Source of the DNA: an uncultured cyanobacterium
Lineage (GTDB): Bacteria; Cyanobacteriota; Cyanobacteriia; PCC-6307; Cyanobiaceae
Direction of reading: 5' to 3'
Assembly (NCBI GenBank): GCA_903935205.1
Contig: CAIZQU010000015.1
Coordinates: 1-50,802 of the forward strand
Length of the DNA: 50,802 nt
A program made the translations under genes and the position numbers. Every line of letters begins with the position of its first letter. The stretch's first letter is position 1. The notes below the pieces were generated by a model. It had not been told where the DNA came from. It worked only from the letters and a program-made list of their open reading frames with translations, and searched no databases. This document shows positions 9,327 through 21,854 of the stretch, in pieces.

Positions 9327-9445
9327 AGTGCTTCAAGGACAAGTGCTTCAAGGAGAAGTCCTTCAAGGAGTAGGCCTTCAAGGAGCAGGCCTTCAAGGAG
9401 AAGTGATTCCAGGAAAAGGAGTAGTCCTTCAAGAAGAAGTTCGTT
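9327..9445. repeat. 15-bp tandem repeat array, block 2
   Basis: At least six units of consensus NAGTCCTTCAAGGAG, starting 11 bp after MITE copy 1 and decaying toward 9445. A 15-bp period preserves a five-residue period in any frame; one frame reads LLLEG repeats on the minus strand and VLQGE repeats on the plus strand. Another reads pentapeptide-like SFKEK/AFKEQ with in-frame stops. It looks like a decayed pentapeptide-type coding repeat or a simple expansion. Confidence 0.75.
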
Positions 9446-17641: not shown

Positions 17642-18211
17642 ATGCCCCCGCCGCCGCCATCGCTGCTGCTGTTCGGTGCTCAGGCGCTGACGCTTCTGCA
17701 CCGGCTGCTCGATGCGGCGGCGCCCCAGGAGGGCTGCGGGCTGGTGCTCGGCCGGCGGCCTCCGCCGGGGCCGGGTTCCGGGGCTGGCCGCGAGGGGGAG
17801 GCCTGGTTGTTGCGGCAGATCTGGCCCTGCTGCAATGTCTGGGAGCCCGCCGTCGAGCGCCGGCGCCGCTTCGCGATCGACCCCCGCGAGCAGCTCCATG
17901 CGATCCGCTGGGGGCGCTCCCGGGGGCTGGATGTGCTGGGTTCGGTTCACAGCCATCCCAGCAGTGCGCCGGTGCCCTCGGCCACCGATCGCGCCCTGGC
18001 CGTCTGGCCGACGCTGATGCTGATTCGCGGCGCCAGCCTCGACCCGACCGACCCGACCGACCCGACCGACCCGACCGACCCGACCGACCCGACCGATCCA
18101 ATCGACCCGACCCACCCGACCGGCGTGGCCAGCACGGGCCAGGAGCTGCGCTGCTGGTGGCTGGAGCCAGAGGCCCCACCCCTGCTGCTGCCGTGGAGAA
18201 TGGAGGATTGA
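17642..18211 (+). CDS. JAMM/MPN-domain (Mov34/M67) metalloprotease
   Basis: Zinc isopeptidase-type protein, 189 aa. All JAMM residues are present: E30 in QEGCG, then H103-x-H105-x7-S113-x2-D116 in HSHPSSAPVPSATD, so it should be active. Bacterial relatives (Mec+/CysO type) trim the C-terminus of ubiquitin-like sulfur carriers. It ends 44 bp before an E1-rhodanese gene in the same direction, which supports a role with a sulfur-carrier protein. Oddity: residues 134-160 are an in-frame DPT repeat encoded by a 9-bp tandem array. The repeat sits between the catalytic core and the final strand. ATG 17642 is the first codon before conserved sequence. Confidence 0.85.
   Translation: MPPPPPSLLLFGAQALTLLHRLLDAAAPQEGCGLVLGRRPPPGPGSGAGREGEAWLLRQIWPCCNVWEPAVERRRRFAIDPREQLHAIRWGRSRGLDVLGSVHSHPSSAPVPSATDRALAVWPTLMLIRGASLDPTDPTDPTDPTDPTDPTDPIDPTHPTGVASTGQELRCWWLEPEAPPLLLPWRMED
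18041..18121 (+). repeat. 9-bp in-frame tandem repeat (DPT)n in the JAMM gene
   Basis: Nine 9-bp units of GACCCGACC, six perfect and three with changes (DPI, DPT, HPT). Because the unit is three codons, length changes keep the frame; likely variable between strains. Confidence 0.9.
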
Positions 18212-18255
18212 GGCGATCGCTTCGGCGAGCGCCTCACGTCCCGATCTTCCCGTCC

Positions 18256-19428
18256 ATGCTTCCTCCCGACACCAGCGGCGTTCAGTTGAGCCCCGATGAG
18301 GTGGCCCGCTTCGGCCGACACCTGATCCTGCCGGAGGTGGGAATGGAGGGGCAGAAGCGCCTCAAGGCCTCCTCGGTGCTCTGCGTCGGCACAGGCGGCC
18401 TGGGATCACCCCTGCTCCTGTACCTGGCCGCTGCTGGGGTGGGGCGCCTGGGAATCGTTGATTTTGATGTGGTTGATGCCAGCAATCTGCAGCGGCAGGT
18501 CATCCATGGCACCAGCTGGGTGGGCAAGCCCAAGATCGAGTCGGCCAAGGCCCGCATCGCCGAGATCAATCCCCACTGCCAGGTCGATCTCTATCCCACG
18601 GCCCTCAGCAGTGAGAACGCCCTGGAGATTATTCGTCCCTACGACATCGTCTGTGACGGCACTGACAACTTCCCCACCCGTTATCTGGTGAACGACGCCT
18701 GCGTGCTGCTGGGCAAGCCGAATGTCTACGGCTCGATCTTCCGGTTTGAGGGCCAGGCCACCGTTTTCAACCTCGATGCGGAAAGCCCCAATTACCGTGA
18801 TCTCTTCCCCGAACCGCCGCCACCAGGCATGGTTCCCTCCTGTGCGGAGGGGGGAGTGATCGGTGTATTGCCTGGCATTATTGGCATGATTCAGGCGGCA
18901 GAAACGGTCAAGATCATTGCTGGAATCGGCACCTCCTTGAGCGGTCGCCTGTTGCTTTTCGACGCCCTCAAGATGAGCTTCCGTGAATTGAAGCTTCGCC
19001 CCAGCCCCGAGCGGCCTGTGATCGATCGCCTGATTGATTATCAGCAATTCTGTGGTGTCGGCGGCAGCGCCCCCGGCCAGGAGGAAGCCGGTGCCGTCGC
19101 CAGCATCAGCGTTCGCGAGCTGAAGGCCCTGTTGGATGGCAACAGCGATGATCTGTTGCTGCTTGACGTGCGCAATCCACCCGAGGCCGAGATCGCCACG
19201 ATTCCTGGCTCCACCCTAATTCCCCTCGATCAGATCGAGAGCGGCAGCGCCGTCGAGCGCGTGCGGCAGCTGGCAGCAGGCCGTCGCCTTTATGTGCACT
19301 GCAAGTTGGGTGGCCGCAGTGCCAAGGCCCTGATCGCCCTGAAGCGCCATGGCATCGAGGGGATCAACGTGGCCGGCGGCATCGACGCCTGGAGCCAGGA
19401 GGTGGATCCCAGCGTCCCCCGCTACTGA
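18256..19428 (+). CDS. moeB: MoeB/ThiF-type E1 adenylyltransferase with rhodanese domain
   Basis: Activates the C-terminus of a ubiquitin-like sulfur carrier (MoaD/ThiS type) by adenylation; 390 aa, similar in architecture to MOCS3/Uba4. The ATP site GTGGLGS is at 45-51, then FDVVDASNLQRQVIH with the Mg-binding Asp, and CDGTDNFPTRYLVND. The segment VPSCAEGGVIGVLPG carries the conserved Cys of this family. The rhodanese domain (about 280-390) has DVRNPPE and the persulfide Cys349 in VHCKLGGRS. No complete pair of CxxC zinc motifs is obvious. ATG 18256 is used because homology begins at LSPDEVARFGRHLILPEVG. Substrate could be molybdopterin, thiamine or another sulfur carrier. Confidence 0.88.
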   Translation: MLPPDTSGVQLSPDEVARFGRHLILPEVGMEGQKRLKASSVLCVGTGGLGSPLLLYLAAAGVGRLGIVDFDVVDASNLQRQVIHGTSWVGKPKIESAKARIAEINPHCQVDLYPTALSSENALEIIRPYDIVCDGTDNFPTRYLVNDACVLLGKPNVYGSIFRFEGQATVFNLDAESPNYRDLFPEPPPPGMVPSCAEGGVIGVLPGIIGMIQAAETVKIIAGIGTSLSGRLLLFDALKMSFRELKLRPSPERPVIDRLIDYQQFCGVGGSAPGQEEAGAVASISVRELKALLDGNSDDLLLLDVRNPPEAEIATIPGSTLIPLDQIESGSAVERVRQLAAGRRLYVHCKLGGRSAKALIALKRHGIEGINVAGGIDAWSQEVDPSVPRY

Positions 19429-19672: not shown

Positions 19673-20884
19673 TCAGTAGTCGACACCGCGCTTGAGGTCG
19701 ACGCCGCGCTCGGCGTAGTGCTTGTGGCAGACCATTTCGGAGTGGACGCTGGCCAGGTCGAAATAGGCGGGTCGGCTCTTGCAGCGGCCGGTGATGATCA
19801 CCTCGGTTTCCGCGGGTTTGCGCAGCAGGGTCTGCACGATCGGCTCCACCGGCAGCAGCTCCAGATCGACCGTGGGATTGAGCTCATCGAGGATCACCGT
19901 CTTGTAGAGGCCGCTGGAAATGGCGGCGCGGGCGATTTCCCAGGCCCGTTCAGCCTCGACGTAGTCGATCGGTTGCTGCTGCCCGCGCCAGACGATGGCG
20001 TCCCGGCCTGAGCGGAGGTGATCGACGAGGTGGGGATAGCTCTCGCGCAGGGCGGCAATCGCCGCATCCTCGGTGTAGCCGCTCCCTCCCTTGAGCCATT
20101 GCAGGATCAGCACCCTGTGGCTCTTGTCCTGGCTGATGCCTCTGCCGATCGCCTGCAGCGCCTTGCCCAGGGCGCTGGTCGACTTGCCCTTGCCTTCACC
20201 GGTGTAGATCTCGATGCCATCCAGGCCCCGCTCCTGCACCCCCCCGTCGGGATCGCCGCCATCGTCCCGCTGGGCGGGGCTGCGGCGCCGGTGGGCCCGC
20301 ATCTCGGAGTGCAGATCAGCCAGCTGCACCAGCTGGGGCGGGGCGCCGCGACCGGTGCAGATCACCTCCATCCCCTCCGGTTTGGCGGCCAGGGTTCGCA
20401 CCACCTCGGCCGTATCGAGCAGGCCGAGATCGAGCACCGGGTTGAGCTCATCGAGCACCACCACCGAATAGAGGGCACTGGCGATGGCCCCCTTGGCGAT
20501 GTCCCAGCCCCGCTGCGCCTCCTGCCGGTCGAAGCGACTGGCCTGCTCGGCGCTGAAATAGTCACCCCGCCCGGTGCGCACCTGGTCGATCAGGTGGGGG
20601 AAGCCCTGCTGCAGGGCTTCGATCGCCGCGTCCTCGTCATAGGAGCGGCCTGGCCCTTTGAGGAAGCGCAGCAGCAGCACGCGGGTGCGTCGCCGTTCGC
20701 AGATCCCCAGGCCGATCGTGCGCAACACCACCCCGAGGGCAGCCTGGCTCTTGCCTTTGCCGTCGCCGTCGTAGACGTGCAGTTGGCCGTGGACCCGCTC
20801 GTCGCTGCCAGCGGCTGTGCGGATGCCGATGCCGCGGCCGGTTCCCCGCTGCGGTGATGGGGTGCGGCTGGAGGAGGACGCCAT
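19673..20884 (-). CDS. double-domain cob(I)yrinic acid a,c-diamide adenosyltransferase (CobO/BtuR-type)
   Basis: Corrinoid adenosyltransferase-like protein, 403 aa, made of two tandem BtuR/CobO domains. Each has its own P-loop (GDGKGKS at 40-46 and GEGKGKS at 230-236). Each also has the linker FLKGPG/WLKGGSG, the DEDAAI/TEDAAI block, the Walker B-like LDELNPVLDL/LDELNPTVDL, and a terminal LHSEM/VHSEM. They differ enough to be an old duplication. The family transfers the 5'-deoxyadenosyl group from ATP to cobalt(I) corrinoids. ATG 20884 fits the conserved start; divergent from larE with 82 bp between starts. Whether both domains are catalytic is unknown. No cobalamin riboswitch was recognised upstream. 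Confidence 0.82.
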   Translation of the reverse strand: MASSSSRTPSPQRGTGRGIGIRTAAGSDERVHGQLHVYDGDGKGKSQAALGVVLRTIGLGICERRRTRVLLLRFLKGPGRSYDEDAAIEALQQGFPHLIDQVRTGRGDYFSAEQASRFDRQEAQRGWDIAKGAIASALYSVVVLDELNPVLDLGLLDTAEVVRTLAAKPEGMEVICTGRGAPPQLVQLADLHSEMRAHRRRSPAQRDDGGDPDGGVQERGLDGIEIYTGEGKGKSTSALGKALQAIGRGISQDKSHRVLILQWLKGGSGYTEDAAIAALRESYPHLVDHLRSGRDAIVWRGQQQPIDYVEAERAWEIARAAISSGLYKTVILDELNPTVDLELLPVEPIVQTLLRKPAETEVIITGRCKSRPAYFDLASVHSEMVCHKHYAERGVDLKRGVDY

Positions 20885-20966
20885 GGCGAAACGCACTGGC
20901 CGGATGCTACCCAGGGCACTCCCCCCAGGGGCCCCAGTTCCCCTTTCGTCTTGCCAGGATCGGGTC

Positions 20967-21854
20967 ATGACCGCCGAACCGCCGCAGCGCCCTCCCCTCA
21001 CCCTGCTCGAATCCCTCCCCCAGCCCCTGGCGGAGGCCTACGGGCGGGTCTGCCGGCGACTGGATCAGCTCGGTGCCGTGGTGGTGGCCTATTCCGGCGG
21101 TGTCGATAGCGCCCTGGTGGCGGCCCTGGCCCATGGACAGCTGGGTTCAAAGGCCCTGGCGGTCACGGGGGTATCCCCTGCCCTGGCCCCCCATCTGCTG
21201 GCCGAGGCCCGGGCCCAGGCCCGCTGGCTGGGGGTGGCCCACCGGGAACTGGCGACCGCCGAGCTGGACGATCCCGCCTACACCGCCAATCCCAGCGACC
21301 GCTGCTATGCCTGCAAACGCCAGCTGCACGGACTGTTGGCCGCTCTGGCCGCCAGCCTTCCCGACACGGTGGTGGTCGATGGGGTGAACCACGACGATCT
21401 TTCGGACCACCGCCCCGGGCTGCGGGCTGCGGGGGAGCGGGGGGTGATCTCGCCCCTGGCGGAAGCCGGCATCGACAAGCAGGGGGTCAGGCATCTGTCG
21501 AGAGCCCTGGGTTTGCCTTGGTGGGACAAGCCAGCCCAGCCCTGCCTCGCCTCCCGCTTTCCCTACGGCGAACCGATCACCGCAGCCCGGTTGGAGCGGG
21601 TGGCCGCCGCCGAGGCCTGGCTGTTGCAGGCCGGCTTCCGGGAACTGCGGGTGCGCAGCCAGGGAGAGACCGCCCGCATCGAGCTGGCAGCCGGCGAGTT
21701 GGTGTGGGCCCTTGAGCTGTTGGCCCAAGGGGGCCTGCGGGAGCGACTGGTGGCCCAGTTCCGGGAATTGGGCTTTTCCGCCGTGGCCCTGGACCTGGAG
21801 GGACTGGTGAGCGGCAAGCTGAACCGCGACCTGGTGCGTTCGCCTGCGGATTAG
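20967..21854 (+). CDS. larE: LarE-type ATP-dependent sacrificial sulfur transferase
   Basis: ATP pyrophosphatase that adds sulfur to the pyridinium precursor of the nickel-pincer cofactor; 295 aa. The PP-loop SGGVDS is at 43-48. Three cysteines stand out: C113 and C116 in RCYACKRQL, and C193 in QPCLASRFPYG, the position of the sacrificial Cys of LarE. The three-Cys pattern is that of LarE proteins that hold a [4Fe-4S] cluster and so may act catalytically. No larB, larC or larA lies in the window, so the role may be another tRNA- or cofactor-thiolation reaction. ATG 20967 starts the protein. The stop at 21854 borders a repeat element directly. Confidence 0.85.
   Translation: MTAEPPQRPPLTLLESLPQPLAEAYGRVCRRLDQLGAVVVAYSGGVDSALVAALAHGQLGSKALAVTGVSPALAPHLLAEARAQARWLGVAHRELATAELDDPAYTANPSDRCYACKRQLHGLLAALAASLPDTVVVDGVNHDDLSDHRPGLRAAGERGVISPLAEAGIDKQGVRHLSRALGLPWWDKPAQPCLASRFPYGEPITAARLERVAAAEAWLLQAGFRELRVRSQGETARIELAAGELVWALELLAQGGLRERLVAQFRELGFSAVALDLEGLVSGKLNRDLVRSPAD

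Follow-up and report, generated by a model that had tools for sequence, protein, structure and literature searches.

A JAMM protease gene beside an E1-rhodanese gene in picocyanobacteria and a proposed role in maturation of the sulfur carrier ThiS

The JAMM and E1-rhodanese gene pair

The window analyzed here (the whole stretch of 50,802 nucleotides, which is contig C15 of a genome of 3.82 Mb in 169 contigs) carries two neighboring genes on the same (+) strand, separated by a gap of 44 bp. The first, at 17642-18211, encodes a JAMM/Prok-JAB metalloprotease of 189 amino acids (PF14464, E 1.3e-18), and the second, at 18256-19428, encodes an E1-like adenylyltransferase of the MoeZR type with a C-terminal rhodanese domain (390 amino acids; ThiF, E 1.5e-79; Rhodanese, E 3.3e-11). 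An earlier note on this DNA had described the two genes as adjacent, with a complete JAMM motif in one product and an intact ATP site and rhodanese Cys in the other, and these observations were borne out.

The JAMM protein contains the catalytic motif E...HSHP-x6-S-x2-D, which comprises the catalytic Glu and the H-x-H-P-x6-S-x2-D signature of JAMM/Prok-JAB peptidases (M67). Its five key residues (E30, H103, H105, S113, and D116) were invariant in ten aligned rows, i.e., the window protein and nine homologues. The start codon is uncertain (the open frame spans 227 amino acids). The top named match of the protein was the NCBIfam desampylase model, at a score of 57.9 bits that is far below the cut-off of 130, and a single-sequence AF2 model gave a pLDDT of 33.8. 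No second JAMM copy was found in the genome in a search with a single-protein query, the remaining two matches having E values of 0.13 and 0.21. The JAMM motif is followed, ahead of the C-terminal part, by an Asp-Pro-Thr run, which is encoded by a 9-bp tandem repeat of 9.2 copies inside the gene (18040-18122, + strand). An Asp-Gln run is located at the same place in another locus (L040), which suggests that this loop may be repeat-prone. A further tandem repeat of the window, of 15/30 bp, is found at 9327-9418.

The E1 protein combines a ThiF domain carrying the ATP-site sequence GTGGLGSP with a rhodanese domain whose loop, CKLGGRS, includes the active-site Cys. It was reported that MoeZR proteins carry NYRD where the first CXXC motif would stand and lack the second one (PMC3227635); the window protein has SPNYRD at this site, and no CXXC was seen by eye. 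With regard to the NCBIfam models, it passed the cut-off of PRK07411 "MoeB" (690.6 bits; cut-off, 633) and fell below that of the MoeZ model (497.9 bits; cut-off, 647). It is the sole ThiF-family match above cut-off in the genome. Further along the window, a single open reading frame at 19673-21001 contains two CobA/CobO adenosyltransferase domains, a form for which the NCBIfam model is PRK07413.

The JAMM gene was located directly upstream of the E1 gene in all 65 loci examined, which represent 57 distinct genomes, and this shared arrangement argues that the pairing is not due to chance. In another genome (G005), outside these 65 loci, the E1 copy adjoining JAMM is interrupted by two stops, and a different contig carries an intact E1 (contigs C9 and C20). 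The pair itself has been known in cyanobacteria since 2006, when Iyer et al. tabulated "E1 fused to a Rhodanese domain and JAB" as an uncharacterized operon (row 4b of Table 1) with seven cyanobacterial species codes, Ana, Avar, Gvio, Npun, Pmar, Syn, and Telo (PMC1779556). The window pair consists of the same two genes in the same phylum.

Sulfur carriers in the genome

Three carriers (L001, L002, and L003) were found in the genome by a search for the ThiS/MoaD family. MoaD (L003) ends in ISGG, and its gene precedes a separate moaE gene. The CysO-like carrier (L001, 91 amino acids) ends in PAVAGG and matches CysO of Mycobacterium tuberculosis (3dwg_C) over the full length, with an E value of 7.9e-21. 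Its gene is located 3′ of the gene for threonine synthase, which was identified among the six PLP fold-II genes of the genome. The same neighborhood was observed in 30 of 30 loci (L055-L084), in which a threonine-synthase motif lies 5′ of, and in the same orientation as, the gene for the CysO-like carrier; this carrier always ends in AGG.

The third carrier, ThiS (L002, 70 amino acids), ends in VGGGS and is encoded by a gene that follows the thiamine phosphate synthase gene. Residues 6-69 of this protein cover the ThiS equivalog model TIGR01683 over its full length (1-64 of 64), and Ser70 falls outside. The GGG-Ser end thus extends one residue beyond the family model, so ThiS should need trimming. 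Thiocarboxylation is described as acting on the carboxylate of the C-terminal Gly (PMC1779556, PMC3227635), and E. coli MoaD mutants with deletions, insertions, or substitutions at the GG end have been cited as showing that both Gly residues are essential (PMC4326299).

The carrier genes are unlinked to the JAMM gene in this genome, with ThiS on contig C57 and JAMM on C15, in agreement with the earlier note, which had seen no carrier gene next to the pair. That note had read the two genes, without naming a client, as a sulfur-carrier processing pair and suggested a genome search for carriers with residues past Gly-Gly. ThiS, with its VGGGS end, is such a carrier, whereas GG is the end of both MoaD and the CysO-like protein. 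Processing of a sulfur carrier is kept as the best reading of the pair.

Co-distribution of JAMM, ThiS tails, and CysO-like carriers

Within an order sample of 150 genomes, JAMM was found in 108, a CysO-like carrier in 51, ThiS in 147, and E1 in 149; 20 of the 42 genomes without JAMM were listed directly and the other 22 were obtained by subtraction from the 108 listed as having it. The 3′ end of thiS was read in all 147 genomes with ThiS. A ThiS tail was present in 107 of the 108 JAMM-containing genomes versus none of the 39 genomes that have ThiS without JAMM, all of which end in GGG. When JAMM is present, ThiS ends in GGG-S (92 genomes), in other tails (15 genomes), or in GGG (one genome, G086). 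The other tails are A (two genomes), SYS (six), and C, F, T, DSP, SLY, SYSELN, and a 14-residue extension (one each). The tails thus differ in residues yet persist wherever JAMM is present, except in G086.

The CysO-like carrier, whose distribution was counted across the order sample, adds a second component to this pattern. JAMM was present in all 50 genomes with both a tailed ThiS and a CysO-like carrier, in all 57 with a tailed ThiS and no CysO-like match, and in the single genome with a CysO-like carrier and no tail (G086), and it was found in none of the 39 with neither. In other words, the presence of JAMM equals "tailed ThiS or CysO-like carrier" in 147 of 147 genomes. It is not confined to CysO-bearing genomes, as 57 of the 108 JAMM-containing genomes have no CysO-like match; CysO may be below detection in those 57.

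All 42 genomes of the order sample without JAMM belong to a single genus (g2), which has genomes of 1.5-1.7 Mb and a G+C content of about 31% in the four blocks read; a JAMM profile likewise found no JAMM in the 18 of them that were drawn into the class sample. This genus also accounts for all three genomes in which ThiS was not matched. In the four blocks, the gene order (amine-oxidase-family gene, fructosamine kinase, small protein, E1, cobO, larE, and speD) is kept, and 286-294 bp stand at the place where JAMM is expected. E1 was found in 41 of the 42 genomes (the exception being G129 of g2), and both the ThiF and the rhodanese domain are kept in the one g2 E1 that was scanned. A special divergence of E1 accompanying the loss of JAMM was considered and rejected, the identity of E1 being within the range of neighboring genes.

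In a ThiE tree built from 55 genomes, which include 8 of g2 but not G086, g2 forms one nested clade, and both the tail and JAMM change once each, on the same stem. This stem represents 1.71 of a total tree length of 14.09 (outgroup branch included), or about 12%. Two unrelated losses would thus fall together on this stem in about 12% of cases, and the large genome counts are not independent. The tree also bears warnings at g2, namely the meeting of long branches and an odd residue make-up, and a coincidence of tail loss and JAMM loss on this long stem is possible.

At the nucleotide level, most of the 108 JAMM-containing genomes share the motif GGT TCC TAG A(T/G)T at the end of thiS, and the Ser codon of the tail lies within this motif (GGTTCCTAGAnT), which spans the stop. 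The form GGTTCCTAGA(T/G)T across the stop was found in L085-L114, L135-L154, L256-L303, and others, and near 1690-1702 of L002 in the genome studied here. The last Gly codon has T as its wobble base in 94% of cases, whereas at the wobble positions of the two Gly codons before it the most frequent base reaches 31% and 47%; the bases after the stop are A (87%) and T (97%). The conservation comprises the wobble, the stop, and the bases that follow it, and no reading frame accounts for it. The SYS-tailed genes that were inspected keep the motif as GGTTCCTACAGT. No such motif was seen in g2 (39 genes), in G086, or in any of the 60 genes from outside the family. The frame past the thiS stop is not consistently common to the next gene, and stop-codon readthrough or frameshifting at the thiS end was rejected, as the long open frame downstream lies in differing frames relative to thiS across genomes. 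Since the motif spans the stop, the tail may simply follow from a constraint on the nucleotides and not be selected as protein; such a tail would still yield a pro-ThiS in need of trimming.

Proposed role of JAMM and alternative readings

On balance, trimming of ThiS is a probable role of the window JAMM. We likewise lean toward the wider reading that JAMM is the protease that matures ThiS, the sulfur carrier for thiamine, working for the shared E1-rhodanese encoded beside it. This reading starts from the observed gene content, tails, synteny, and co-distribution, and its catalytic steps are ones that we infer. Briefly, ThiS would be made as pro-ThiS ending in Gly-Gly-Gly-Ser and would be cut by JAMM after the last Gly, which removes Ser and exposes the carboxylate. 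The E1-rhodanese (no other E1 was detected in the genome) would then adenylate this carboxylate and give the thiocarboxylate for thiazole synthesis, as predicted from the MoeB, MoeZR, and ThiF families. Mec hydrolyzes amino-acid adducts of CysO, and JAMM probably hydrolyzes those of the CysO-like carrier in a similar manner, as a second client, where this carrier exists. The same E1 probably serves MoaD and the CysO-like carrier too. For 2-thiosugar synthesis, a single MoeZ was reported to work with sulfur carriers of primary metabolism (PMC5321127). In its fullest form, the proposal is that picocyanobacterial ThiS is a pro-protein requiring a cut by the JAMM encoded beside a universal E1-rhodanese, with two carrier clients (pro-ThiS and the CysO-like carrier), and that JAMM was lost only in the lineage without the tail and the second client; we regard the chances of this full form as evenly balanced.

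If true, the proposal would assign a function to two genes that have been listed as a cyanobacterial pair since 2006, and proteolytic maturation, a feature of ubiquitin-like proteins, would join the thiamine synthesis of abundant marine phototrophs. The JAMM-less clade and its JAMM-bearing relatives would also constitute a natural experiment on one residue. ThiS as a client of JAMM was not found in our literature search, a weak search in that "ThiS" is indistinguishable from "this"; within the literature searched, ThiS as a client of the pair is new.

Several known systems are similar in part. In the QbsE/QbsD and HcyS/HcyD systems, whose genes are clustered and serve siderophore or methionine synthesis, the carrier is trimmed by JAMM before activation. 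The present case resembles them in having a JAMM, an E1, and a carrier that continues beyond its Gly end, but here the ThiS gene lies outside the JAMM cluster and serves thiamine, and the removal of the tail by JAMM is suggested by co-distribution. In the 2006 survey, the thiamine and MoCo gene clusters are given without a JAB gene (PMC1779556), whereas the client proposed here is the thiamine carrier, with its gene unlinked. DRJAMM of Deinococcus cuts a MoaD-MoaE fusion and leaves a C-terminal Gly (PMC8832034), and MoaX of M. tuberculosis is reported to be cut at Gly-Ser by a protease left unnamed (PMC4326299). In both cases the C-terminal Gly of a carrier is exposed by a protease, as proposed for ThiS, but the substrate there is a MoaD-MoaE fusion and here a short ThiS tail, with moaD and moaE being separate. 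The profiles of the JAMM and ThiS families also match two chains of one crystal (5lda), JAMM1 (E 1.3e-7) and SAMP2 (E 0.0031), which shows only that proteins of such kinds can pair. A different peptidase could also trim the ThiS tail.

A rather unlikely alternative is that the CysO-like carrier is the sole client of JAMM, which would act as a hydrolase of the Mec type: a PLP enzyme would combine an activated amino acid with the CysO thiocarboxylate, JAMM would then release cysteine or another thiol amino acid, and the ThiS tail would be trimmed otherwise or be harmless. Freeing an amino acid from a carrier adduct is compatible with carriers that all end in Gly-Gly, and the present case resembles the CysO/MoeZR/Mec system of M. 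tuberculosis in that a single genome encodes a CysO-like carrier together with a JAMM and a MoeZR-like E1. The match of the carrier to CysO over the whole length, the constant threonine-synthase motif 5′ of its gene, and the reported sulfuration of both CysO and MoaD by MoeZR (PMC3227635) are consistent with this reading. However, the carrier gene sits with thrC and not with JAMM or cysM, and the 57 JAMM-containing genomes without a CysO-like match imply that this is not the role of JAMM there.

It is quite improbable that JAMM acts on MoaD or strips carriers from conjugated proteins in a desampylase-like manner, which would make the link to the ThiS tail coincidental. The desampylase model was the best named match, yet well short of its cut-off; MoaD ends in GG and is encoded separately from MoaE, and the agreement of JAMM with "tail or CysO" in every genome, though based on one independent loss, also stands against this possibility. 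The idea that JAMM serves a protein thiocarboxylate-dependent synthesis of homocysteine (HcyS/HcyD-like, possibly with threonine synthase and O-phosphohomoserine) appears very improbable: no PF01053 (Cys_Met_Meta_PP) enzyme of the MetY/MetB/CGS kind scored above cut-off in the genome and the CysO-like gene adjoins thrC, but the carrier lacks a tail, JAMM is also found in genomes without this carrier, and a DUF39/HcyBio gene (E 2.1e-50) is present, by which homocysteine is probably made in this genome through the other route described for Desulfovibrio (PMC5764234).

Returning to pro-ThiS as the preferred client, a ThiS tail was found in cyanobacteria outside the family in 7 of 46 JAMM-containing genomes versus 0 of 14 without a JAMM match. 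The JAMM profile is near its limit there, and scoring was generally confined to 11 candidates or fewer in each genome, which makes the absences of JAMM weak. The 60 ThiS genes concerned were read from best-scoring coordinates rather than at random, with one of two ThiS matches read in G344. ThiS is untailed in the remaining 39 of the 46 genomes with JAMM, and as these are the majority, JAMM has another role, probably the older one, for which the CysO-like carrier is a candidate client outside the family.
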